24,449 nucleotides of DNA from a virus: positions 1 through 24,449 of the IMG/VR virus record IMGVR_UViG_3300020083_001927, one strand, 5' to 3'. Under the pieces are notes generated by a model. It worked only from the letters and a program-made list of their open reading frames with translations. It searched no databases and was not told the DNA's origin. Numbering within the stretch: the stretch's first letter is position 1; the number at the start of each line of letters is the position of its first letter. This document shows positions 11,340-24,449 of this stretch, one piece after another. The translations under genes and the position numbers were made by a program.

Positions 11340-13596
11340 CGTTATCTTGTGGTGCTGCAACATTTCTCTCTACACCGTTACTGCTTTTAGCGGCGTCTCT
11401 CAAATCACTATTACTTTTAACCAGTTTTAATGGTAAATTGCGGAAATGATGACTATGTGGCACCAGCCTTACACAATCGTCTTCTCCCCACGCACCGAGT
11501 GTATTATTATTCATCACTGGAACCCAACTAGGCGTACCTGGGCCTTGAGCTATTAGAACCCATCCTATTCTTTTATTCACCCCCGTATTAGTAGTGCCAA
11601 ATACAGTAGTATCTTCAGTTTCTTGTATCTCTACAGGGGCAGTTACATGATTTAGCGTTAATTCTCCCTCAATATGTGCACCTCCACCTACTACTAAGTT
11701 ACGACTAACACCAAGACTACTATCAATCAACACTTGCTTCATTTGTCTTTGCTTGAGAGCAATAATATCAGCAGTAATTGTAAGTCTCTTACCACCATCT
11801 ATATTGACCTCGTTACCACTGGCAATATTAATTTGTTCTCCAGACATATTAACAATAGTACCACCTATTTGAACTGGACCAAACGATTTCATGCTTATAC
11901 CTCCTGCCCCTACCTGAAGGGTATACCTGTTACATACATTAAGGGTGTAATTGCCCCCCGGTAAATCATCGACATGAACATATTCTATTAAAGGACTAGC
12001 TTCTTGATTCTCGAAAACACCATCAGTTCCTACTGAAACACCAGCATTGTATATTTTACCCTGACTATCAACACGTATACTACCAAAATCATTCATCACC
12101 AGTCCGATTGTTTCGATTTTATGCTTAGTAACGTCTACTATTTCATGCCCGCCCAAGCCTAAGCTAGCCTCTGCTTTACTTAAATTGACAATTTTAGAGC
12201 TAATTAAAGATTTTAACTGTTGTTTTGCTGGGTCAGGTGTCCAGTTACCTCCCATCGAGCTCTTACTTTGACCAGTTCCACCGCAGCTGGGGCATTGATA
12301 GGTAGGCGGGAATGCAAGATTCTGAGGACTACCAGGGGGCTGCACCCCCTTATTGTTAACATTAATGTAATCTGCTACTTCATCCTTAGTACTATCTACT
12401 GTAGAGGTAGCAACCGAAGTAAATGGACTATTTTTTAATGTATCATACTTTCTCCCACCATTACAAACAGGACATGGTCCATAGCTTCCAGCTTGAGACT
12501 GCTCAACACTATTAAAAAACTGCTTTTCCTTTACTCTTTGCGTTTCAAATCTTTGTTTTATATCAGCAATATCTTGCATCAAATCTTTCCATCTTTGTAC
12601 AGCGCTTGCATCTAAACTACCTATTTTTCTATACAAATCCCCTCTAACAGTACTATCATTATCACCATCTACATAATAATTGTCTGTACCACGAACAGTT
12701 TCAAACTTATCACCTAAAATTAAGTGTTGTTCATTGGATGTAGCAAGATATATACTCGATGGATTTGTTAAACTAATAAAACTTCCACTATAATGGGTAA
12801 TATTTACAGCTTCCCTGTTATCTGTATTTACAAATTCTATTGTACCGCCTTTTTGATTGATCAAATATTTGTTTCTATATGTTTCCACATTATGATCTGT
12901 GTTTGATGTATTTGGTTTCTTGTTTTCATAAGAATCGGGGTAATCTGATAACTCATAAACATTCTGCCATTCTTGTGCACCATGGCTTGCAGCAAAGTAA
13001 ACAGGATACATAGGATTACCGTCAATAAAAAATACCCATAAATGAGAACCTACCGAAGGAATAGCAAAAGAACCTTTTGCTTTATTTGAATAAGAGGAAG
13101 GCCGATAATTGTTACCATATATATTAGCTTTATTGGTACCAGAAGAACCTGGGCTTACAAACGCATCTTTAAGTGAGAAATTATACTTTTCATATATATT
13201 GGCCGGCTTTTCTCCTGTCCCGTCTTTATTTTGACTAAATTCTGTTGTTTTGAAATCTTTTACCGGTGTAGAGCTCTTATAATCACTGCTATCACTAATA
13301 GTTGCGCTTCTATTAAAACTGTTATAACGACCAGAAGAGTCCTCCCCCACTAAAGGCGAAGCACACTCCGCCCATGGTAAGATATCCTTTAACTCATCCA
13401 CAATATCAGTAAGATTGCTCTCTATATTAGAACCAAGAAATTTAAATTTTTTATCTGTTAATGTTTTACCCCAATTGTTATATACCCCCGGAGAAATACT
13501 GGGTATGTAGACCTTAACCCTGCCGCTTTTTGCAGGATCATTGTTAGCAACTACTATGCCGAGGTAATTACCGTAAAATTTACCTTCAGCCTTCAT
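11323..13596 (-). CDS. gp5-like baseplate hub/central spike protein without a lysozyme domain
   Basis: The 757-aa protein opens with the gp5/VgrG-type OB-fold signature FYGNYLGIVVANNDPAKSGRVKV. After a low-complexity stretch it has GSFAIPSVGSHLWVFFIDGNPMYPVYF (about 175-201), the typical second half of the OB domain. No lysozyme domain is found. Residues 240-325 and 485-650 look like beta-helix spike. Between them is a helical insert (about 330-365) and two CxxC knuckles (CPVCNGG at 375 and CPSCGGTG at 435), resembling a DnaJ-type zinc site. Near the C-terminus PHSHHF (713-718) resembles the HxH iron site at phage spike tips. It is coupled by ATGA to the 3D-domain protein upstream, which may supply the missing peptidoglycan-cleaving activity. 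Confidence 0.88.
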   Translation of the reverse strand: MKAEGKFYGNYLGIVVANNDPAKSGRVKVYIPSISPGVYNNWGKTLTDKKFKFLGSNIESNLTDIVDELKDILPWAECASPLVGEDSSGRYNSFNRSATISDSSDYKSSTPVKDFKTTEFSQNKDGTGEKPANIYEKYNFSLKDAFVSPGSSGTNKANIYGNNYRPSSYSNKAKGSFAIPSVGSHLWVFFIDGNPMYPVYFAASHGAQEWQNVYELSDYPDSYENKKPNTSNTDHNVETYRNKYLINQKGGTIEFVNTDNREAVNITHYSGSFISLTNPSSIYLATSNEQHLILGDKFETVRGTDNYYVDGDNDSTVRGDLYRKIGSLDASAVQRWKDLMQDIADIKQRFETQRVKEKQFFNSVEQSQAGSYGPCPVCNGGRKYDTLKNSPFTSVATSTVDSTKDEVADYINVNNKGVQPPGSPQNLAFPPTYQCPSCGGTGQSKSSMGGNWTPDPAKQQLKSLISSKIVNLSKAEASLGLGGHEIVDVTKHKIETIGLVMNDFGSIRVDSQGKIYNAGVSVGTDGVFENQEASPLIEYVHVDDLPGGNYTLNVCNRYTLQVGAGGISMKSFGPVQIGGTIVNMSGEQINIASGNEVNIDGGKRLTITADIIALKQRQMKQVLIDSSLGVSRNLVVGGGAHIEGELTLNHVTAPVEIQETEDTTVFGTTNTGVNKRIGWVLIAQGPGTPSWVPVMNNNTLGAWGEDDCVRLVPHSHHFRNLPLKLVKSNSDLRDAAKSSNGVERNVAAPQDNAKKGP

Positions 13597-14636
13597 GCTA
13601 TACCGTAGGTTGGGGGAGAATTTTTAGCATATCTATAATTACTTGTAGGAGGAAACACCTTTACACTTATATACTCAGGTGTAGAATTGGCAAATGCTAT
13701 TGCATCTTCTTTTTTAAAAAAGAATACATCGACTACAGGTGTTTTACCTCCACTTGCAGTTCTTGCTTTAACTGCACCTCCTGTGTCCGTGGCAAATCTA
13801 ACACCAATATCGGGGAATTGTATTCTACTTAAGTAAGGAATAATAGCCGGGTCAACCGCAGCGCTTATACCTTGTTGAAGCTGTCGACCAGTAGAACTCC
13901 GTAGAGCTGCAGAATCTGAATCTGTACCGGACCCATACGCCCAATATACTGTTCTTCTAACATATAGATCAAATCCATTTTTATTATCACCGCTATACTG
14001 GGGTGAACTTATTTGTTGTAGATTTTGTTGTGCAGAGTTATTGAAATCATTATTTTGAACTTCTGAAAGTGTCATTTCTTTAGAATTATTCTTAAGATTA
14101 TCTAATGCAGTAGTTACAGTCTCTTGTTTTTTTGCGTTAAAAATATCTGGGTTACTTAAATCTCTAATACCTTTGGGTGTAAAACTAGGGTATGAGGATT
14201 GTACTGATTGGTTAAGATTTCCCAACTGAAAAGCTTGATCATTACCCTTGAGTGTACCGATAGTTTGCATTGAAATTCCTTTTGAGTAGCTTTCTAGAGT
14301 TTTAGTAAGTTGTGAATTTGCACTTTCTAGCTGACTTATAGCAATAGAGTTCTGTACATTAATTGAGTTTTGGCCTTGAACTGAATTCAAGTAAGAAGTG
14401 GCAGATGAATCTAAAGTAGGCCTGATTGCAGTAGCATTTTGTTGAAAAACATTTTCCATATTAGTCTGATTAATAGATTGAGGTTGATCATCAGAGTAGG
14501 TGATAAAATTATCAGGCAAGTAAGAGGCTAGTGTGTTATCAAACCCATCAAAAGAAGGAATTGAGGTGGATACAGTATTTTTATCCTGTATCTTGGCTAA
14601 AAGATCTGATATTGTGTCTGGTGATGAATAAAACAC
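13593..14636 (-). CDS. Tail-associated 3D-domain protein (putative virion peptidoglycan lytic enzyme)
   Basis: The 347-aa protein has a Ser/Gln/Asn-rich, probably extended or helical N-terminal region (1-215). A C-terminal 3D domain (about 222-330) carries the three aspartates in AAVDPAIIP (D262), ATDTGGAV (D284) and VVDVFF (D303). The domain is a clear paralogue of that in the exported protein at 2108-2671. There is no signal sequence. It is encoded just before, and overlapping by ATGA, the gp5-like hub, which lacks lysozyme. It is therefore likely to be a tail component that opens the cell wall during DNA entry. Start is GTG with a late-type element 5 nt upstream on the minus strand. Confidence 0.78.
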   Translation of the reverse strand: MFYSSPDTISDLLAKIQDKNTVSTSIPSFDGFDNTLASYLPDNFITYSDDQPQSINQTNMENVFQQNATAIRPTLDSSATSYLNSVQGQNSINVQNSIAISQLESANSQLTKTLESYSKGISMQTIGTLKGNDQAFQLGNLNQSVQSSYPSFTPKGIRDLSNPDIFNAKKQETVTTALDNLKNNSKEMTLSEVQNNDFNNSAQQNLQQISSPQYSGDNKNGFDLYVRRTVYWAYGSGTDSDSAALRSSTGRQLQQGISAAVDPAIIPYLSRIQFPDIGVRFATDTGGAVKARTASGGKTPVVDVFFFKKEDAIAFANSTPEYISVKVFPPTSNYRYAKNSPPTYGIA

Positions 14637-14683: not shown

Positions 14684-15490
14684 ATGAAAGTTTCTCATGA
14701 GACCCCTATTTCACTGTTAGATTATTCTAGAGATTACAATGATTTTGACTATTGTTTAGTACATTTATTAGATAAACACCCTGATTACAAGGAGTTTTAT
14801 AAGACAGCAAGACCTATTTACAATCGAGAAGTACTTCTAGACAATTCTATATTTGAATTAGGCAAAGCATTTGACGCAGAGGCTTTCTATAAAGCAGCTT
14901 TAGAACTAGAACCTAATATGTTCATAGTTCCAGATGAACTGGAAGATATGACCGGTACGATACAAAGCTTTAAAAGCTTTACAAACAAAATGCAAGATTT
15001 AAAAAACACCTTTCTAACCAAGGCCATTGGTGCTGTGCAGGGTAAAAACTGGCAAGAGTTAACCGAGTGTTATAAGTTTATATCTGATAACGCAGATATG
15101 GTTGCAATAAGTTTTGATTTTAGTTATTACCAGGTAACAGGTCGCGGTTGGCACCATTTAGAGCGTTGGTGTTCGGGTCGTCAGCGCTTTATTCAAGATT
15201 TAATAAATAATGGTCTATGGAGGTGGGATAAGCCTCATCATTTGTTGGGATGCTCACTAGCAAAAGAATTTCGTTACTATGTCGATAGAGGTATTCACAA
15301 TATTGTGTCTTGTGATACTAGCAATCCAATTGTTGCCGCTATTCATGAAATAAAGTATGATGCGGATTATGGGCTAGACACTAAACCTTCTACTAAGCTT
15401 GCAGATCTGATTAGTCATGAATTTACACCTGAACAATTAGAGATGGTTAAGTACAATACTACAATGTTTAAGAAAATTATTCGTAGATGA
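14684..15490 (+). CDS. dpdA: TGT/DpdA-like (deaza)guanine transglycosylase, predicted DNA base exchange
   Basis: The 268-aa protein resembles phage DpdA and tRNA-guanine transglycosylase-type TIM barrels. Motifs in order: LLDNSIFELG (51-60), IVPDELEDMTGT (81-92), GAVQGKNWQEL (116-126, compare TGT VVQGG), ISFDFSYY (142-149), HHLLGCSLAKEF (185-196, compare the TGT iGG loop) and SCDTSNPI (209-216). The last has a candidate nucleophile Asp211. The CxCx2C zinc site of bacterial tRNA TGT is not seen. TGT enzymes swap guanine for preQ1 in tRNA; DpdA homologues insert 7-deazaguanines into DNA. QueF in the same gene block favours the DNA role. A tRNA substrate remains possible. The gene overlaps the formyltransferase start by ATGA. 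Confidence 0.68.
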   Translation: MKVSHETPISLLDYSRDYNDFDYCLVHLLDKHPDYKEFYKTARPIYNREVLLDNSIFELGKAFDAEAFYKAALELEPNMFIVPDELEDMTGTIQSFKSFTNKMQDLKNTFLTKAIGAVQGKNWQELTECYKFISDNADMVAISFDFSYYQVTGRGWHHLERWCSGRQRFIQDLINNGLWRWDKPHHLLGCSLAKEFRYYVDRGIHNIVSCDTSNPIVAAIHEIKYDADYGLDTKPSTKLADLISHEFTPEQLEMVKYNTTMFKKIIRR

Positions 15491-16056
15491 GACCCTGGGT
15501 AGCATTTTTCTCTCAAACAGGAACAGAGATTCATAATTTAAGCAATGAAATAGGGGTGTATCCTGATGCTATCATTACAAATAATCCTACTATATCTAAG
15601 ATTAATTCTGCTTTAAGATATGTAACAGAGTTTAGAACCAATAAACTAAATCGAGAAATATTGCACACACTTACTTCTAAGCCAACAGTAGAAGAATATG
15701 AAAATATTTTAAGTAAATTTAAGAACCCTATACTAACTTTACACGGTTATTTAAGAATTATACCAAAACAAATTTGTGAAAAGTATGAAACTTACAATCT
15801 ACACCCGGGATTAATAGACAAATATCCAGAGTTGAAAGGGTTTAACCCTCAAGAGCGTGCCTACAGGGATAACTACAAGCTAGCCGGTTGTGTTATTCAC
15901 AAAGTAACACCAGAAGTTGATGAAGGAGAGATTTTAATGAGCCAAGGCATTAGTATAGAGGGGTTAACTCTTAATGAGGTCTATGAAAAATTACACGATA
16001 CGGCTTTTGATCTGTGGAAAAGTTTTTTTTCCGCTTATAATGTTTTAAAGGGCTAA
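15487..16056 (+). CDS. PurN-type formyltransferase family protein
   Basis: The 189-aa protein has the catalytic core of the 10-formyl-THF-dependent formyltransferase fold. NLHPGLIDKYPELKG (104-118) supplies Asn104 and His106, and CVIHKVTPEVDEGEIL (135-150) supplies Asp145, matching the Asn-His-Asp triad of PurN. The N-terminus (VAFFSQTGTEI) matches the first strand and loop of the family, but the glycine-rich phosphate-binding loop for GAR is altered. This suggests a different acceptor. Its position between a DpdA-like enzyme and QueF (making preQ1, which has a free amine) makes formylation of a deazaguanine side chain an attractive role. GAR formyltransferase activity in purine synthesis is the main alternative. 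Translation is coupled to the gene on each side. Confidence 0.8.
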   Translation: MRPWVAFFSQTGTEIHNLSNEIGVYPDAIITNNPTISKINSALRYVTEFRTNKLNREILHTLTSKPTVEEYENILSKFKNPILTLHGYLRIIPKQICEKYETYNLHPGLIDKYPELKGFNPQERAYRDNYKLAGCVIHKVTPEVDEGEILMSQGISIEGLTLNEVYEKLHDTAFDLWKSFFSAYNVLKG

Positions 16057-16057
16057 T

Positions 16058-17023
16058 ATGGACGTTTCTTTACATTATAAAAATGTTTTTTTAAAGCCTA
16101 ATTTCAATTCTGTTAAGTCGAGAAAAGAAATTGACACACATGTACAGTTTTGTGATCGGGTTTTCAGGTTACCTGTTATACCCGCTAACATGAAATGTTG
16201 TGTAGACTATGAAACTTGTCAGATGTTAGATAAAAACAACTACTTTTATATAATGCATAGATTTGATATAGACATTTTAAACTTTGTTAAGTATGCAAAT
16301 TTGCAGAACTTTCATAATGTTTCAATTAGTATCGGTATACAGGATAAAGATAGGCACATTATTAACGAATTATCACATATTTCTCAGCTTGGTAGGTTAG
16401 ATTTCATAACTATTGACGTTGCCCACGGTCATCACTCTAAGGTTTGTGGTCAAATTAAGTTTATTAAAGATAGACTCCCAGCAGTTAGAGTAATTGCGGG
16501 TAATGTAGCATCGTATAAGGGGGTAGAATATTTAAGAGACTCTGGAGCAGACGCCGTAAAGGTAGGTATTGGTGGTGGTTATGCGTGTACTACTAAGGAT
16601 AAAACAGGATTTACCCATCCTATGTTTAGTTGTATAATGGAATGTGCCCAAGACAACAATTTACCTGTTATCGCCGATGGTGGTATACGCAATAACGGTG
16701 ATATTTCTAAAGCTATTGTTGCAGGAGCTACAATGGTAATGTGTGGTTCTATATTTGCTGCATGTTCAGATAGCCCAGCCCCAATAGTTAAGGATTCCTC
16801 CGGGCATAGATACAAACAATACTACGGCTCAGCAAGTATTCACAATAAAATTGAAAAAAGAAATATTGAAGGTACAATGAAGCTTATGGAAGCTGATACA
16901 ACAACCTATTTAGAGAAGCTAGAGGAAATTGAACAAGATTTACAGAGTGCAATAAGCTACGCAGGTGGTTGCAATCTTAAAGCTCTTAACCTACATAATG
17001 TATCTTACGGGGTAAGAATGTAA
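16058..17023 (+). CDS. guaC: GMP reductase
   Basis: This 321-aa IMPDH/GMPR-family TIM barrel matches the GuaC type (PVIPANMKC near 39-47, NYFYIMHRF 61-69). It has GNVAS, the catalytic loop GIGGGYACTTKDKTGF with Cys177 and Thr179, ADGGIRNNGDI (206-216), and YYGSAS with NKIEKRNIEGT. There is no CBS insert, unlike IMP dehydrogenase. GMP reductase converts GMP to IMP and ammonia with NADPH. The loop reads GGGYACTT where many GuaC have GPGSVCTT; the catalytic Cys is kept. The gene begins 1 nt after the formyltransferase stop and shares a TAATG junction with the next gene. With the Gpt-like enzyme it could recycle guanine released by base exchange. Confidence 0.9.
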   Translation: MDVSLHYKNVFLKPNFNSVKSRKEIDTHVQFCDRVFRLPVIPANMKCCVDYETCQMLDKNNYFYIMHRFDIDILNFVKYANLQNFHNVSISIGIQDKDRHIINELSHISQLGRLDFITIDVAHGHHSKVCGQIKFIKDRLPAVRVIAGNVASYKGVEYLRDSGADAVKVGIGGGYACTTKDKTGFTHPMFSCIMECAQDNNLPVIADGGIRNNGDISKAIVAGATMVMCGSIFAACSDSPAPIVKDSSGHRYKQYYGSASIHNKIEKRNIEGTMKLMEADTTTYLEKLEEIEQDLQSAISYAGGCNLKALNLHNVSYGVRM

Positions 17024-17367
17024 TGGGAGAAGATTATATTAAAATTGTAGAGTCCACGTATCCAGAGACGTGTGAAGAGTTTAAAAAAATACAGAAAGAG
17101 CAATATGAAGTTTTTTGTAAGAAGCAGTTTGATTATGGGCCCCACAATATTAGTCTTGGCTCAGATCTTCACAAAAAAGAAGACATAATAGCGTCTATAT
17201 CAGCAATTGTAGTAAGGTTAAACGACAAAATTCAACGGCTTATTAATATGGTTTTAAGAAAAAAAACATTTGAAGCGGCAAATGAGCCAATTTTTGATGC
17301 TTTTAGCGATACCTCTGTATATTGTATTATTGCAGAAATAGTTAAAAGAAAAAAGTGGTGTAAGTAG
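17023..17367 (+). CDS. DUF1599-like nucleotide-modification-associated protein
   Basis: The 114-aa, mostly helical protein has the pattern CKKQFDYGPHNI (32-43), VVRLNDKIQRLINM (62-76) and NEPIFDAFSDTSVYCIIAEI (87-106). This resembles the DUF1599 (Pfam PF07659, from memory) family, found in phages beside nucleotide or base modification genes. It may be a small pyrophosphatase-like all-alpha protein acting on nucleotides; the acidic and basic residues of the last helix pair fit a nucleotide-binding role. The ATG overlaps the guaC stop (TAATG). Biochemical activity is unknown. Confidence 0.62.
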   Translation: MGEDYIKIVESTYPETCEEFKKIQKEQYEVFCKKQFDYGPHNISLGSDLHKKEDIIASISAIVVRLNDKIQRLINMVLRKKTFEAANEPIFDAFSDTSVYCIIAEIVKRKKWCK

Positions 17368-17377
17368 TAGTTGTAGT

Positions 17378-17383
17378 TATAAT
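17378..17383 (+). promoter_or_regulatory. Class A -10 hexamer TATAAT before the P-loop kinase
   Basis: A perfect TATAAT is followed by 7 bases and the GTG at 17391, the same -10 to start distance as at 4809 and 14684. The -35 position (TGGTGT, 17356-17361) is a poor match, so this may be a weaker or internal promoter of the modification operon. Confidence 0.4.
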
Positions 17384-17390
17384 AGAGTAA

Positions 17391-17975
17391 GTGAATATTA
17401 CTTTTACTGGGCCGCAGTGTTCGGGTAAGACTACTTTGCTCAAGCAAATGAAGCAGACTAGAGGTATTATGGATCAGTTTTTTTATATTGAAGAAGTTAC
17501 TAGATTAGTAAAGAGGGAGTTTAATGTTAGGATAAATGAAGAAGGTGCAAACGATATAACTCAATTGTTAATTTTAAATAAGGAACTAGAGAATTTATTT
17601 AAATACGATTATGAACTTTGGCCGGGATGTAAAGGTAATGTACATGATAGATGCCTACTAGATGGTTTGGTATTTACAGAATATTTTTATGATAAAAAAC
17701 TTGTAAGTCAGCAAATCTGGTCACAAGCGTTAAACTATTGGAATCGTTTTTATCATAAATACGATATTATATTTTATCCCGATCCCCATGAAATAAAATT
17801 AGTCGATGACGGTGAGAGAAGTGTTGACGTAGATTTTAGAAATAATATTATAGACAAGTATGAGAATTACTATCTAGATCAATTTCAATGGAAAGATAAA
17901 GTTGTAAGACTGAAAGGAACAGTAGAAGAGAGAATAGGGATGATTAAAAGTATTATAGATTTTTATACAAAGTAG
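17391..17975 (+). CDS. P-loop NTPase, probable nucleoside/nucleotide kinase
   Basis: The 194-aa protein starts with a Walker A motif GPQCSGKT (7-14) on the first strand. It has a DRCLLDG motif (86-92) like the DR of deoxynucleoside and thymidylate kinases, and resembles the AAA_28/NadR-type small kinases. A charged segment with Arg (about 134-150) may be the lid. It probably phosphorylates a nucleoside or nucleotide; the neighbouring GMP reductase, DUF1599 and QueF suggest a purine or modified purine. The specific substrate cannot be read. Start is GTG, 7 nt after a TATAAT. The downstream gene follows after 15 nt. Confidence 0.72.
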   Translation: MNITFTGPQCSGKTTLLKQMKQTRGIMDQFFYIEEVTRLVKREFNVRINEEGANDITQLLILNKELENLFKYDYELWPGCKGNVHDRCLLDGLVFTEYFYDKKLVSQQIWSQALNYWNRFYHKYDIIFYPDPHEIKLVDDGERSVDVDFRNNIIDKYENYYLDQFQWKDKVVRLKGTVEERIGMIKSIIDFYTK

Positions 17976-17983
17976 TATAAAAT
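17956..17983 (+). promoter_or_regulatory. Early-type promoter (class A) for queF, TAGATT-N16-TAAAAT
   Basis: TAGATT (17956-17961), 16 bases, TAAAAT (17978-17983), then 7 bases to the ATG at 17991. Same spacing as the other class A promoters; its -35 lies inside the end of the kinase gene. Confidence 0.45.
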
Positions 17984-17990
17984 ATATTCA

Positions 17991-18908
17991 ATGAGCAATA
18001 CCATTTTAGATAATAGCAATATTTCAAAGCATCTCGGTAAAATAACCGGTTATAAATCAACATATGACCCGACGTTGTTGGTAAGAGAGCCTAGAATTAA
18101 CAATAGAAAGCATTTAGGAATTACAGATGAGGATGTTCCGTTTGGTGGTTATGATATTTGGAATGCTTATGAAGTTTCCTGCTTAACAAAAGAGGGTATG
18201 CCTATTGCTGCTATAGCTAAGATTGTTTACCCGGCTAAAAACAAATACATCGTAGAGTCAAAGTCGATAAAGCTGTATATGAATTCGTTTAATATGCAAA
18301 AGTTTGAAGGAAATATTATTTCTATTTTAATGCAACTTCAAGATACGATTGCATCTGATCTTTCTAAGCTTTTAGAAACTGACGTCAAGGTATATGTAAG
18401 ATCTACCAAATCAGTAGATGATGGTTTGTATTATCCACCGGTCTTTTCAAATAAAGACTACCCGACGTTAGAGAATTTTATTGATGTAACTACTATTAAA
18501 GCGCCTTTTTACACAGAAAATCCCGATATTTTGAGTGCTGAAAAAATTAATGAATCTAAAGTACAAAGATTCCACTCCGCATTATTAAAAAGTAATTGCA
18601 GAGTTACTTCTCAACCTGATTGGGGAGATGTTTACATTCACTACAAGGGTAAATATGAAATTAATCCAACTTCTCTTTTACAATATATTGTTTCTTTTAG
18701 AGATGAATGTCATTTTCACGAAGAGATTTGTGAAACTATTTATATGAGAATTTTTCGAAAGTTTTTTCCCGAAGAGCTAGTTGTTAGCTGTTTATATGTA
18801 AGACGTGGTGGTATTGATATCAATCCAACAAGGTCGAGTAATCATAGTCTTTTAGACAAATCGTTAATTGACGAGTTTAAATATTTTACAAAAACGGTCA
18901 GACAGTAA
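17991..18908 (+). CDS. queF: NADPH-dependent 7-cyano-7-deazaguanine (preQ0) reductase, bimodular type
   Basis: The 305-aa protein aligns along its whole length with bimodular QueF (E. coli, 282 aa): HLGKITGYKSTYDPTLL, then PFGGYDIWNAYEVS, and the NADPH-binding ESKSIKLYMNSFN (89-101). The active-site LLKSNCRVTSQPDWG has Cys203, which forms the thioimide, and Asp210. SFRDECHFHEEICE and RRGGIDINP (271-279) follow. QueF reduces the preQ0 nitrile to the aminomethyl group of preQ1, a queuosine precursor. The NADPH motif and double T-fold argue for true reductase rather than the archaeal QueF-like amidinotransferase. Phage QueF is known from 7-deazaguanine DNA modification systems, and a DpdA-like gene lies 2.5 kb upstream. 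It ends 1 nt from the convergent ferritin-like gene. Confidence 0.95.
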   Translation: MSNTILDNSNISKHLGKITGYKSTYDPTLLVREPRINNRKHLGITDEDVPFGGYDIWNAYEVSCLTKEGMPIAAIAKIVYPAKNKYIVESKSIKLYMNSFNMQKFEGNIISILMQLQDTIASDLSKLLETDVKVYVRSTKSVDDGLYYPPVFSNKDYPTLENFIDVTTIKAPFYTENPDILSAEKINESKVQRFHSALLKSNCRVTSQPDWGDVYIHYKGKYEINPTSLLQYIVSFRDECHFHEEICETIYMRIFRKFFPEELVVSCLYVRRGGIDINPTRSSNHSLLDKSLIDEFKYFTKTVRQ

Positions 18909-18909
18909 C

Positions 18910-19275
18910 TTAAGACAGCTTTAACAAATAACTAGTCTGATTCAATACCCCAAGCATTTCATCTCGTATGTTTAATAAGTCCGTGTCCTTTTCAGGGTTT
19001 AATCTTTGAGATATTTCCGATAAAAAGAGCTTGTACGTATCTAGCGCATCACAAACACTAACACTTTTTATGTCAAAGAGTTCTATATTCATTTCCCCAT
19101 TGGCTAACTCTACACTATCCCTACCCAGTGCCGTTTCAACAAAAGTATCAATTAATTCATCTAAAGATTCATAAGCTTTGCCTAAAGCTTTATGTGCACT
19201 GTAACTTTTTGTCTGCCAATGAAAAACCCTTAGTTGATTTTGCATTTGAAGCAAATCTTTAACAACTGACTGCAT
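18910..19275 (-). CDS. Ferritin/Dps-like helical protein (DUF5856-like)
   Basis: The 121-aa all-helical protein has the Dps-like pattern LRVFHWQTKSYSAHKALGKAYESLDELIDTFVE (about 16-48). His and Trp on the first helix are followed by a second His and acidic residues on the next helix, as in ferritin-like iron sites. It is shorter than Dps (about 160-170 aa) and resembles the DUF5856 proteins common in T4-like phages. Whether it binds iron, protects DNA or is structural cannot be told. A late-type element lies 5 nt before its ATG, suggesting late expression and possibly virion association. Confidence 0.7.
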   Translation of the reverse strand: MQSVVKDLLQMQNQLRVFHWQTKSYSAHKALGKAYESLDELIDTFVETALGRDSVELANGEMNIELFDIKSVSVCDALDTYKLFLSEISQRLNPEKDTDLLNIRDEMLGVLNQTSYLLKLS

Positions 19276-22241: not shown

Positions 22242-24449
22242 GTGGCTGACCGTAATGTATTAATATCTCCGGGTGAAGGTTATATATTTTTCGATAGGAG
22301 CAATACTGGCTCTTCGACAAAATATGCAGGGGTTTCTGCCGATCTTAGCGTACAAATCCAATATAATGATCTTGGTGGGTTAGAGTTTAGTACACCTGCT
22401 ACTAACAATTCAACAGTTTCTATAAGTGGTGGAAATATCGTAGCTAATAGAAATATTACCGGGTTTACCATTTTTGAGAATCACTTAAATACAAATAGTG
22501 ATGACTGGGCATCAGTTTATTCTTCAGTTCAAACAAATTCATCTGATTGGAATGGAGGCGGAAGCCTTTATACAGTAGTTACAGAAAATAGTGCAAACTG
22601 GAACAGCGTTTATACTTCTGTAAGTGAAACTAGTGCTGACTGGGATTCAACTTACACATCGGTCTCCGAAACATCGGCTGACTGGGATAGTACATATACA
22701 TCGGTTTCAGAGACAAGCGCTGATTGGGATTCAACGTATACATCGGTCTCCGAAACATCAGCTGACTGGGATAGTACATATACATCGGTATCTGAAACAT
22801 CGGCTGATTGGGATAGTACTTACACTTCAGTTTCAGAGACGAGTGCTGACTGGGATTCAACTTATACCTCCGTTAGTGAAACATCAGCTGACTGGGACAG
22901 TACATATACTTCTGTTTCAGAAACATCGGCTGACTGGGATTCAACTTATACCTCCGTTAGTGAAACCAGTGCTGATTGGGATATTACATATACTTCTGTA
23001 AGCGAAACATCAGCTGACTGGGATAGTACGTATACTTCTGTTTCAGAAACATCGGCTGACTGGGATAGTACGTATACTTCTGTTTCAGAAACATCTGCTG
23101 ATTGGGATAGTACCTATACATCGGTATCTGAAACATCAGCTGATTGGGATTCGACTTATACTTCCGTAAGCTTAAATAGCGCCGATTGGGATAGTACATA
23201 TACTTCTGTTTCAGAAACATCAGCTGATTGGGATTCGACTTATACTTCCGTAAGCTTAAATAGCGCCGATTGGGATAGTACATATACTTCTGTTTCAGAA
23301 ACATCTGCTGATTGGGATAGTACATATAGTTCAGTTAGCCTAGTAAGTGCCGATTGGGACAGTTCAATTTACGACATTTATGGTACAACACACCAAATAA
23401 CCGTTGTAACAGCAGGTACAAATAACAGAGATAATAGCGTTACTTTAAGTTTCCCGACAAGTGTATTTTTCCCAGGTAGTGTTAGTATAGCAGGTAACCT
23501 AACAATCTCTGGATCTGCCGCACAAATAGATGTAGATCACTTAGTAGTTAAAGATAATATAATTTATTTTGCAGAAGATAACCCAGCAAATGTTTTAGAT
23601 ATCGGATGGGTTGGCGCATTTACAGAAATTGGCGATGATGCTGGGTACCAACATACAGGTTTGATTAGAAGAGCAGGCCAAGGCCGCCCTGGTACATGGA
23701 CATTATTCTCTGGGCTTACAACAGAACCTGCATCTGCTGCAAATATTAATTGGGATGATTATTATTTTACAATAGACACTCTAAGAGCTAACCTATCTGG
23801 TACAGTGTTAGTACCTGGTGGCGGGTCTTCATTTGACTGGGATAGTGTATATGCTAATGTTCAAGCAAATTCAGCTGGTTGGAGCGGAGGAGGAAGCCTT
23901 TATACAGTAGTTACAGAAAATAGTGCAAACTGGAACAGCGTTTATACATCAGTAAGTGAGACTAGCGCTGACTGGGATTCAACTTACACATCGGTCTCCG
24001 AAACATCGGCTGACTGGGATAGTACCTATACATCGGTTTCACAAACATCTGCTGATTGGGATAGTACCTATACTTCTGTAAGTGAGACTTCAGCTGATTG
24101 GGATAGTACCTATACATCAGTAAGTGAAACATCAGCTGACTGGGATTCAACTTATACTTCCGTTAGCGAGACCAGCGCCGATTGGGATAGCACATACACA
24201 TCTGTAAGCGAAACATCGGCTGATTGGGATTCAACCTACACTTCTGTTAGTGAAACCAGTGCTGATTGGGATAGCACTTACACCTCAGTAAGTGAGACCA
24301 GTGCTGACTGGGATTCAACCTATACATCAGTAAGTGAGACCAGCGCCGATTGGGATTCGACTTATACTTCTGTAAGCTTAAATAGCGCCGATTGGGACAG
24401 TACATACACATCAGTAAGTGAGACCAGCGCCGATTGGGATTCGACTTAT
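22242..24449 (+). CDS. Trp-repeat tail-fibre protein (3' end outside window)
   Basis: A GTG at 22242 opens a frame running uninterrupted to the window edge (736 codons). The N-terminus (VLISPGEGYIFFDRSNTGSS) looks like a fibre domain. From about residue 88 a 14-residue repeat, consensus TSVSETSADWDSTY, begins. Trp codons fall exactly 42 bp apart from 22599 to 23355 (19 Trp) and from 23931 to 24435 (13 Trp). Each array is preceded by two looser repeats and a GGG-containing linker. Between the arrays lies a beta-rich domain (about 372-530) with GLIRRAGQGRPGTWTLFSG, typical of phage fibres. Fourteen residues equal two heptads, with Val and Trp seven apart, so a trimeric helical shaft is plausible. 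Downstream of the other fibre gene, it is likely a distal or parallel fibre subunit. Confidence 0.85.
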   Translation, partial: MADRNVLISPGEGYIFFDRSNTGSSTKYAGVSADLSVQIQYNDLGGLEFSTPATNNSTVSISGGNIVANRNITGFTIFENHLNTNSDDWASVYSSVQTNSSDWNGGGSLYTVVTENSANWNSVYTSVSETSADWDSTYTSVSETSADWDSTYTSVSETSADWDSTYTSVSETSADWDSTYTSVSETSADWDSTYTSVSETSADWDSTYTSVSETSADWDSTYTSVSETSADWDSTYTSVSETSADWDITYTSVSETSADWDSTYTSVSETSADWDSTYTSVSETSADWDSTYTSVSETSADWDSTYTSVSLNSADWDSTYTSVSETSADWDSTYTSVSLNSADWDSTYTSVSETSADWDSTYSSVSLVSADWDSSIYDIYGTTHQITVVTAGTNNRDNSVTLSFPTSVFFPGSVSIAGNLTISGSAAQIDVDHLVVKDNIIYFAEDNPANVLDIGWVGAFTEIGDDAGYQHTGLIRRAGQGRPGTWTLFSGLTTEPASAANINWDDYYFTIDTLRANLSGTVLVPGGGSSFDWDSVYANVQANSAGWSGGGSLYTVVTENSANWNSVYTSVSETSADWDSTYTSVSETSADWDSTYTSVSQTSADWDSTYTSVSETSADWDSTYTSVSETSADWDSTYTSVSETSADWDSTYTSVSETSADWDSTYTSVSETSADWDSTYTSVSETSADWDSTYTSVSETSADWDSTYTSVSLNSADWDSTYTSVSETSADWDSTY
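22597..23359 (+). repeat. Array 1 of 42-bp (14-aa) tandem repeats
   Basis: Eighteen consecutive 42-bp intervals separate 19 in-frame TGG codons, with no indel. Copies differ mostly at synonymous positions (TCA/AGT/AGC for Ser, GAC/GAT), while the peptide SVSETSADWDSTYT is almost constant; variants are SVSLNS and one WDITY. Codon divergence with a fixed peptide points to selection on the protein. Confidence 0.95.
23130..23305 (+). repeat. Near-perfect 84-bp tandem duplication inside array 1
   Basis: Bases 23141-23221 recur exactly at 23225-23305, including the variant SVSLNSADW unit, and the match extends about 11 bases upstream. This two-unit block must be a recent duplication, since other units differ by several synonymous changes. 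Confidence 0.9.
23929..24449 (+). repeat. Array 2 of 42-bp (14-aa) tandem repeats, cut by window end
   Basis: Twelve 42-bp intervals separate 13 in-frame TGG codons (23931-24435), and the array runs off the window. Its leader is a copy of that of array 1: 56 bp (22560-22615) are identical to 23892-23947, and the offset of 1332 bp holds for the flanking Trp codons too. Confidence 0.95.

Follow-up and report, generated by a model that had tools for sequence, protein, structure and literature searches.

Layout of the gene cluster

The stretch of viral DNA analyzed here (‘the window’, 24,449 nt) is contained with 100% coverage in a viral contig of 229,717 bases. Between positions 14684 and 18908 it harbors six open reading frames, all located on the + strand as a preliminary description of the sequence had claimed; the same description called the genes mostly overlapping, which holds for two of the five junctions (overlaps of 4 nt and 1 nt), while the other three are separated by gaps of 1, 23 and 15 nt. 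A further gene at 1609 to 2085, encoding a purine phosphoribosyltransferase (PRT), had been left unlinked to the cluster. NrdAB is also located near the cluster. The features considered here are:

1609–2085, + strand: Gpt-like 6-oxopurine PRT, with a proposed role in guanine salvage (PF00156, 2.9e-11)
14684–15490, + strand: DpdA, predicted DNA-guanine transglycosylase, 268 aa (homology, structural model, TGT fold)
15487–16056, + strand: formyltransferase, predicted to formylate preQ1 (PF00551, 4.6e-15; triad N104, H106, D145)
16058–17023, + strand: GMP reductase (PF00478, 5.1e-53; PRK05458; 1ypf; Cys177, Glu271)
17023–17367, + strand: DUF1599-like protein, nucleotide modification associated domain 1 (phrog_1485, function unknown, 2.2e-12)
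17391–17975, + strand: AAA_28 P-loop kinase of NadR/deoxynucleoside-kinase fold (PF13521, 5.9e-15; structural model)
17991–18908, + strand: bimodular QueF, predicted to convert preQ0 to preQ1 (both T-fold domains; conserved residues)

The gene order of the cluster is found again in dozens of contigs, which excludes a chance arrangement. The DpdA family is itself common, with a confirmed relative in at least 567 stretches of viral contigs; the neighborhoods of 80 of these were examined, together with 80 that resemble the locus of Flavobacterium phage vB_FspM_immuto (NC_055915, ‘immuto’). In bacterial genomes, DpdA3 was encountered in 3 MAG contigs among 45 pattern-matching stretches. The name of that subfamily, the DpdN formyltransferase and a formylated preQ1 (‘fdPreQ1’) reportedly go back to Cui et al. 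2023; we take the protein at 14684–15490 to belong to DpdA3, and the formyltransferase to be of the DpdN type.

Identity of the encoded proteins

Searches of the DpdA protein against Pfam, NCBIfam and PDB sequence profiles gave no match to a TGT (and, in Pfam, no meaningful match of any kind), and the PF01702 profile matched nothing in the window, so that the TGT fold became visible only from a structural model. In each fold search of that model (AlphaFold2, pLDDT 93.2) against the PDB, all 50 of the matches listed were TGTs, the best among them superimposing at 3.0 Å over 231 residues (Z 18.1). The protein displays 41.5% identity to the immuto DpdA (E 6e-54; annotation as deposited) and about 46% to a Campylobacter phage DpdA, and the stretches D53-N-S, Q119-G120, L187-L188-G189-C190 and D211-T-S-N-P are invariant in 43 aligned rows. 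An hhalign comparison paired its VQG and LMGVG stretches with those of E. coli TGT, but with a low score and a probability of 0.7. The suggestion of a TGT/DpdA-like barrel in the preliminary description is borne out by the model, the fold matches and the homology to annotated DpdA; as confidently modeled, the protein is a TGT-type barrel and a relative of DpdA.

The formyltransferase match to PF00551 lies above the curated cut-off, formyltransferases in the PDB are matched as well, and the Asn-His-Asp triad is kept almost throughout the aligned rows (N104 and H106 each in 57/58, D145 in 56/58), all of which agrees with the PurN fold first proposed. The score against the PurN equivalog is far below its cut-off (50.2 versus 150.1 bits), and the protein is therefore not classed as PurN itself. 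It is 47.8% identical to its immuto counterpart. Its preQ1 substrate is predicted, and it could act on a different amine.

Both T-fold domains of QueF exceed the Pfam cut-offs (QueF_N, 4.7e-34 and 117.5 bits; QueF, 4.7e-21 and 75.2 bits), and C203, D210, H243 and E244, the catalytic Cys, Asp and His/Glu of QueF enzymes, are conserved in at least 97% of 70 aligned rows; the early recognition of a bimodular QueF stands. The protein scores 266.1 bits against the NCBIfam equivalog TIGR03138 (cut-off 293.45), is 45.2% identical to the immuto QueF, and conserves an ESKS-x-KLY stretch that is presumably a sign of QueF nitrile reductases. The genes for preQ0 synthesis, for which a search of the remaining genome had been suggested, are all present elsewhere in the contig that contains the window: FolE, QueD and QueC were each detected in 9 of 11 contigs, including this one, and QueE is encoded in it too. 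A class II (glutamine) amidotransferase gene adjoins QueC in the phage. That GMP reductase might provide QueC with ammonia was an idea abandoned in view of this amidotransferase.

The GMP reductase match to PF00478 (the IMPDH/GMPR family) is above the curated cut-off, and GMP reductase models outscore that of IMPDH (330.9 and 283.8 versus 154.2 bits), the higher score being that of PRK05458, whose NCBIfam equivalog cut-off is 344. The best PDB match is the GMP reductase 1ypf (241.7 bits), and Cys177 and Glu271 are kept in 48 of 48 aligned sequences; the gene had been named correctly. For the DUF1599-like protein the earlier reading has weak support: 19 of 33 aligned members of its family match PF07659 weakly (best E 0.0023), and the window protein itself has no match to that profile.

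The P-loop kinase has likewise been confirmed as such, its AAA_28 match exceeding the curated cut-off and its model (pLDDT 88.9) matching structures of NadR, dCK and dGK at Z 16.6–18.6. It is 34% identical to the immuto kinase. The preliminary description regarded both the kinase and GMP reductase as unusual partners. This does not hold for the kinase, which stands beside DpdA3 in 67/68 and 64/64 loci examined, the association of DpdA, kinase and QueF being near-invariant among them, and whose family also adjoins DpdA in Campylobacter phages. GMP reductase and the DUF1599-like gene are what the cluster has in addition to that of immuto.

The window PRT matches a purine PRT and XGPRT in the PDB and is 25% identical to E. 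coli Gpt and 32% to the immuto PRT; it falls below the XGPRT equivalog cut-off (PRK09177, 67.4 versus 138 bits) and is for that reason called only a Gpt-like purine PRT. In the immuto group, 9 of 11 contigs match PF00156, with three of the nine matches lying outside the cluster, so that the cluster PRTs themselves have a Pfam match in 6 of the 11 contigs tested; the others were identified with a purpose-built profile and the PRPP motif, and the three contigs with outside matches were confirmed by the motif and a single-sequence search. The motif is present in 72 of 72 cluster PRTs. Across these 72 loci the slot is occupied by 59 Gpt-type, 11 Hpt-type and 2 unclassed enzymes, two of the Hpt-type members scoring above the NCBIfam HGPRT cut-off (150.7 and 153.6 versus 150).

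A proposed pathway and its rivals

While gene content, folds and catalytic residues are direct observations, the substrates, the order of steps, and the identity and amount of the modified base are what we infer from them. The core of the cluster (and the core only) probably supplies that half of a 7-deazaguanine DNA-modification pathway of the phage in which the base is inserted and finished. GTP would be converted to preQ0 by FolE, QueD, QueE and QueC, whose genes lie outside the cluster in the same phage, and QueF would reduce preQ0 to preQ1; DpdA would then exchange guanine in phage DNA for preQ1, and the formyltransferase would cap its aminomethyl group. In DNA capped in this manner one would expect 7-(formylamino)methyl-7-deazaguanine and, with it, resistance to the restriction enzymes of the host. 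Because the TGT/DpdA fold, QueF, the formyltransferase triad and all four preQ0 genes come together in one contig, preQ1 or formyl-preQ1 is the best prediction from sequence for the base in virion DNA. The DpdA homologues in Flavobacterium and Campylobacter phages, the matching gene order in immuto and the near-invariant association of DpdA, kinase and QueF favor this core reading as well. The Campylobacter homologues come from Firehammervirus, a genus in which 7-deazaguanine derivatives are said to take the place of all deoxyguanosine (PMC10273834); other lines of that text mention inosine instead of G for Campylobacter phages, which renders this support second-hand and not clean. As for the guanine that is expelled, the phage PRT may convert it to GMP, which host kinases would return to GTP for FolE, or which GMP reductase, where the phage has the gene, would convert to IMP; we consider this fate of the guanine a conjecture with somewhat less than an even chance.

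A use of the cluster for tRNA queuosine, or of its QueF as an amidotransferase that makes archaeosine (dG+) instead of preQ1, seems quite unlikely. Que genes in phages that lack DpdA may serve to increase queuosine in the host, and QueF and QueF-L are hard to separate by sequence (PMC6884629); an amidotransferase, moreover, adjoins QueC. Against this stand the presence of DpdA, six cluster genes that include no queA-type enzyme, the ESKS-x-KLY stretch of QueF, and the dPreQ1 yielded by the QueF-type enzymes of Dp-1 and HVTV-1 (PMC6884629).

The more closely balanced question concerns the purine genes. The PRT, GMP reductase where it is present, and perhaps the kinase may be dedicated parts of the DpdA3 pathway that handle released guanine and bring replacement nearer to completion, a reading that we hold tentatively, at just under even likelihood. 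It is favored by the constancy of the PRT, with PF00156 found in 13 of 13 DpdA3 contigs of at least 95 kb in the window lineage, and all 70 immuto-like loci placing a PRT upstream of DpdA, in the order QueE-PRT-FolE in 65 of 65 and no more than 80 nt from FolE in 64 of the 70 having both genes; by an independent PRT-FolE adjacency in Brevundimonas phage StAshley; by a distant DpdA3 contig (L240) with an HGPRT-like gene and an IMPDH/GMPR-family gene; and by phages Dp-1 and 9g, in which the stretches searched (9,000 of 56,506 and 50,000 of 56,702 bases) gave no match to the profiles of this kinase, PRT and GMP reductase. That Gpt-type and Hpt-type enzymes, which share one purine-salvage chemistry, occupy the same slot raised our estimate from doubtful to its present level. 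On the other side, neither PF00156 nor PF00478 finds a match in the genome of Campylobacter phage CP220; PF00156 is without a match in 6 of 31 window-like contigs, all below 86 kb; Pfam recognizes the cluster PRT in little more than half of the immuto-group contigs tested; and GMP reductase is missing from 3 of the 13 large contigs of the window lineage, with no PF00478 match in any of 11 immuto-like contigs or in immuto. Insertion of preQ1 by TGTs is also thought to be effectively irreversible, and the removal of guanine may therefore be unnecessary. GMP reductase is, on sequence evidence, an accessory gene of the window lineage, and it could equally be an auxiliary gene of the ordinary sort, one that keeps purines in balance for an AT-rich genome (the window has 31–40% GC, with NrdAB nearby), its place in the operon incidental; this explanation, too, we rate at a shade below even. 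GMPR-like matches occur in 73 phage records (a part of these being unannotated fragments that may be host DNA), and the four neighborhoods read contain no 7-deazaguanine genes. Most DpdA3-associated GMP reductases form one clade, which implies few acquisitions. Conversely, members of that clade remain near DpdA3 at two different positions, a separate acquisition is found in contig L082, and 39 of 46 close relatives lie in a DpdA3 locus (in a search seeded with the window’s own protein).

An exchange before replication, in which DpdA3 would act on free deoxyguanosine or its phosphates, the kinase would recharge the product and a polymerase would insert the modified base, appears improbable. It would account for a kinase of NadR/dCK/dGK fold beside nearly every DpdA3, and for its presence in Campylobacter phages, where replacement is said to be complete. 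The TGT fold, however, usually acts on a polymer, and the kinase could simply help to provide ordinary dNTPs. It is similarly improbable that nucleotide-level exchange, charging by the kinase and removal of guanine by the PRT (in some phages with GMP reductase) together lead to the replacement of nearly all deoxyguanosine.

Further searches and significance

PADLOC gave weak matches only, with no convincing defense match. PurZ-like adenylosuccinate synthetase was found in none of 11 records searched, and there is thus no sign of a diaminopurine-type route. A search for an HD phosphohydrolase (a possible dGTPase) was negative in all 9 viral contigs that it covered; one stands beside DpdA in CP220, and in immuto the match is weak and under the cut-off. 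A promoter motif of Bacteroidota type matched 38 times against 35.3 expected, which is no signal and points to no host. In the literature searched, guanine salvage by a PRT with DpdA3 is not mentioned (Cui et al. 2023 lay outside its scope and may mention the genes), nothing joins phage, preQ0 and GMP reductase, and no paper joining GMP reductase, bacteriophage and guanine was on topic by title. A search for fdPreQ1 found nothing, DpdA3 matched yeast papers only, and none of the matches listed for DpdN and related terms concerned a formyltransferase; the main text of PMC6884629 contains neither ‘kinase’ nor ‘phosphoribosyl’.

Modified guanine in DNA is a known kind of viral camouflage, and purine-salvage genes may handle the guanine that it expels. 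A kinase fixed beside nearly every DpdA3 provides a concrete test of where the exchange occurs, and a PRT fixed in the biosynthetic cluster a concrete test of the fate of expelled guanine; both bear on the way in which certain phages arrive at complete replacement of their guanine.

Comparison with known systems

Streptococcus phage Dp-1 and Enterobacteria phage 9g combine a preQ0 pathway with a TGT-type protein, as does the window phage, and Dp-1 DNA contains dPreQ1 (PMC6884629); the profile of the window formyltransferase, too, had no match in the stretches of the two genomes that were searched. Campylobacter Firehammervirus CP220 encodes a DpdA about 46% identical to that of the window, followed by a member of the same kinase family (34%), and next to this DpdA neither the annotation nor the searches show a QueF or a formyltransferase. 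The closest correspondence in gene order is provided by immuto, in which DpdA, formyltransferase, AAA_28 kinase and QueF follow one another as in the window and a PRT is present. The immuto genome has no match to the GMP reductase family and its annotated region no DUF1599-like gene, whereas the window cluster has both, and FolE, QueD and QueE adjoin DpdA in immuto but lie elsewhere in the genome of the window phage. Judged by this matching order, the core of the window cluster is of an already known kind.

A six-gene cluster built around a DpdA-like transglycosylase

Six open reading frames, separated by intergenic gaps of at most 23 nt, lie together on one strand of the window:

14684-18908, +: TGT-like protein, formyltransferase, GMP reductase (GMPR), DUF1599-like protein, AAA_28 P-loop kinase and bimodular QueF

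The TGT-like protein gave no match in a domain search; with its structural model (pLDDT 93.2), a fold search listed 50 solved structures, all of them tRNA-guanine transglycosylases (best match: Z up to 18.1, 3.0 A over 231 residues). The named proteins most similar to it come from Campylobacter phages (~46%) and, as an annotated DpdA, from Flavobacterium phage vB_FspM_immuto (41.5%); we take its family to be the one reportedly named DpdA3 by Cui et al. in 2023. Transglycosylases that act on tRNA carry a zinc site, which appears to be missing from the window DpdA, because no cysteine is found C-terminal of D211 in its sequence.

Alignment of the partner enzymes revealed conservation of Asn104 (57/58 rows), His106 (57/58) and Asp145 (56/58) in the formyltransferase, of Cys177 and Glu271 in all 48 GMP reductases (ORFs shorter than 280 aa and duplicates having been removed beforehand), and of Cys203, Asp210, His243 and Glu244 in QueF. 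Since these residues, whose roles we presume from family knowledge, are retained, all three enzymes look functional.

The same partners recur in related loci, which are kin and in some cases near-identical, such that their counts do not represent independent events. Among the 80 loci closest to the window (‘window-like’), out of at least 567 confirmed DpdA3 loci, 68 extend at least 3.5 kb downstream of DpdA; these contain QueF (68), the kinase (67), the DUF1599-like gene (56), the formyltransferase (55) and GMPR (28). The sole kinase-negative locus, L069, has its kinase slightly past the distance limit, and a recount under other limits (n=64) gave kinase 63, QueF 61, formyltransferase 56, DUF1599 49 and GMPR 20. 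Where GMPR is present, it lies directly 3' of the formyltransferase in 21 loci, upstream in 6 and far downstream in 1. For loci resembling the immuto cluster (‘immuto-like’; 80 of 98 confirmed), those reaching 4.5 kb or more past DpdA carry the kinase (64/64), QueF (64/64) and the formyltransferase (61/64); GMPR and the DUF1599-like gene were found in none of the 80. The kinase also adjoins DpdA in three Campylobacter phage loci.

Several other features were observed in the window:

18910-19275, -: DUF5856 protein, tail-to-tail with QueF; PHROG assignment starvation-inducible (Dps-like); homologues in 11/80 related loci, mostly at the same position
2108-2671, +: small protein with a signal-like start
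13593-14636, -: larger protein, whose C-terminal part is a 112-residue domain shared with the preceding protein (54% identity)
22242-24449, +: ORF running past the window end, with 42-nt (14-residue) tandem repeats in two arrays of ~16 and ~12 copies; perhaps a tail-fibre-type protein

The preQ1 pathway in the surrounding contig

The window is contained, full length and at 100% identity, in a viral contig of 229,717 bases (G001), which also encodes:

G001 154928-155671, -: QueC
G001 173992-174648, -: FolE
G001 176341-176994, +: QueD
G001 177775-178521, +: QueE-like radical-SAM protein

Together with the window QueF, these genes indicate that a complete GTP-to-preQ1 route exists in the phage contig; its QueE and QueD score below the NCBIfam equivalog cut-offs. 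QueC, FolE and QueD are each present in 9/11 contigs tested, and the two contigs that lack them (121 and 95 kb) are possibly fragments.

Two further genes of G001 adjoin this pathway:

L144:14238-14927, -: class II glutamine amidotransferase, directly adjoining QueC
L145:19664 to L146:359: second P-loop kinase, directly 3' of QueD/QueE and separate from the DpdA-operon kinase

The amidotransferase and QueC look like a split version of a Gat-QueC fusion; of four related contigs searched, three have a homologue no more than ~1.5 kb from QueC, and none was seen in 10 immuto-like loci. The second kinase is AAA_28-like judging from its start, and its counterparts in loci L120 and L121 match the kinase profile.

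A phosphoribosyltransferase as a possible partner of the pathway

A Gpt-like purine phosphoribosyltransferase (PRT) gene at 1609-2085 had been left unconnected to the cluster in the preliminary description; its linkage emerges from comparison of contigs. A PF00156 match is present in 13/13 window-like DpdA3 contigs of at least 95 kb (a cut set post hoc, with the data already seen, and with G001 and a second contig, G003, sharing an identical DpdA sequence), and in 25/31 of all window-like contigs tested (16/20 and 9/11). For the immuto-like clusters we used a profile of our own, which places a PRT no more than 5 kb upstream of DpdA in each of the 70 loci whose sequence reaches far enough. The gene order is QueE-PRT-FolE in 65/65, and 80 nt or less separate PRT from FolE in 64/70 loci having both genes. 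Pfam detects the cluster PRT in 6/11 immuto-like contigs, with the match located elsewhere in 3 and no match in 2. All 72 PRT genes found in these clusters carry a PRPP motif and match the window PRT as a single query.

By simple sequence marks, this slot holds 59 Gpt-type, 11 Hpt-type and 2 unclassed enzymes:

L209, L210, L213, L214, L218, L221, L222, L224-L227 (immuto-like loci): Hpt-type PRT replacing the Gpt-type, between QueE and FolE

Two Hpt-type members exceed the NCBIfam HGPRT cut-off (150.7 and 153.6 vs 150), and the best-fitting model for the immuto PRT is that of the xanthine PRT (59.7 vs a cut-off of 138). The occupation of one slot by two enzyme types of shared purine-salvage chemistry is the best argument for PRT function belonging to the pathway. 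Since the 11 Hpt-type enzymes all accompany a single subset of the DpdA family, they may reflect one replacement event.

GMP reductase and the possible fate of guanine

The GMPR family is found in 10/13 large window-like contigs and 11/21 of all those tested, in 0/11 immuto-like contigs, and without a match in immuto, CP220 (a Campylobacter phage), phi19:2 and StAshley. A FastTree phylogeny of 48 sequences unites the DpdA3-associated genes from both main positions in a single clade (support 0.999). The upstream-position pair of loci L114/L115 nests among the adjacent-position genes, and the gene of L082 branches elsewhere in the tree.

The FolE-QueD-QueE-QueC-QueF series makes preQ1, and DpdA puts 7-deazaguanines into phage DNA as a protective modification, as described in one published account (PMC6884629). 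Onto the observed gene content, gene order, fold and residues of the cluster a scheme can be projected in which DpdA would insert preQ1, the formyltransferase would produce its formylamino form, PRT and GMP reductase would handle the expelled guanine, and the kinase would act on a nucleoside or nucleotide. Because every exchange must release one guanine, we propose a salvage arm in which the PRT, GMPR where present, and perhaps the kinase process it, a reading that we consider possible while falling just short of probable.

PRT and GMP reductase could also represent ordinary purine metabolism, and other phages carry GMP reductase with no sign of a 7-deazaguanine pathway in the four neighbourhoods examined, which speaks against a special link to DpdA3. 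Among close GMPR relatives, 39/46 occur with DpdA3 and 41/46 with DpdA3 or QueF; those with neither are in L120, L121, L124, L126 and L128, the first two of which hold a sister GMPR gene whose surroundings include QueE (and, in L121, QueD). A phage-like stretch in a Clostridia MAG (L240) carries a distant DpdA3 (33%), with HGPRT-like and IMPDH/GMPR-family genes within 21 kb and no QueF or FolE match in 20.8 kb:

L240 9983-10807: distant DpdA3
L240 2722-3273: HGPRT-like gene
L240 18297-19427: IMPDH/GMPR-family gene

Comparison with known phage systems

The linkage of PRT and kinase to DpdA, and the insertion of GMP reductase, may be new: we could not find them in print, in a literature search that did not include Cui et al. 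2023. Searched by tblastn, the window PRT matched 13 of 50,697 phage records, which include three named groups, each examined through one record. Immuto carries Que genes; in StAshley the PRT adjoins FolE, with QueC, QueD and QueE present and a weak DpdA3-profile match; phi19:2 has a FolE at another place in its genome. CP220 has no PF00156 match, and phages 9g and Dp-1, with known 7-deazaguanine pathways, gave no PRT, kinase or GMP reductase match in the stretches searched. Formyl-preQ1 in phage DNA was reportedly published in 2023, by Cui and colleagues. Judged from its genes, the modification core is of a known kind, and an annotated cultured phage has the same gene order.
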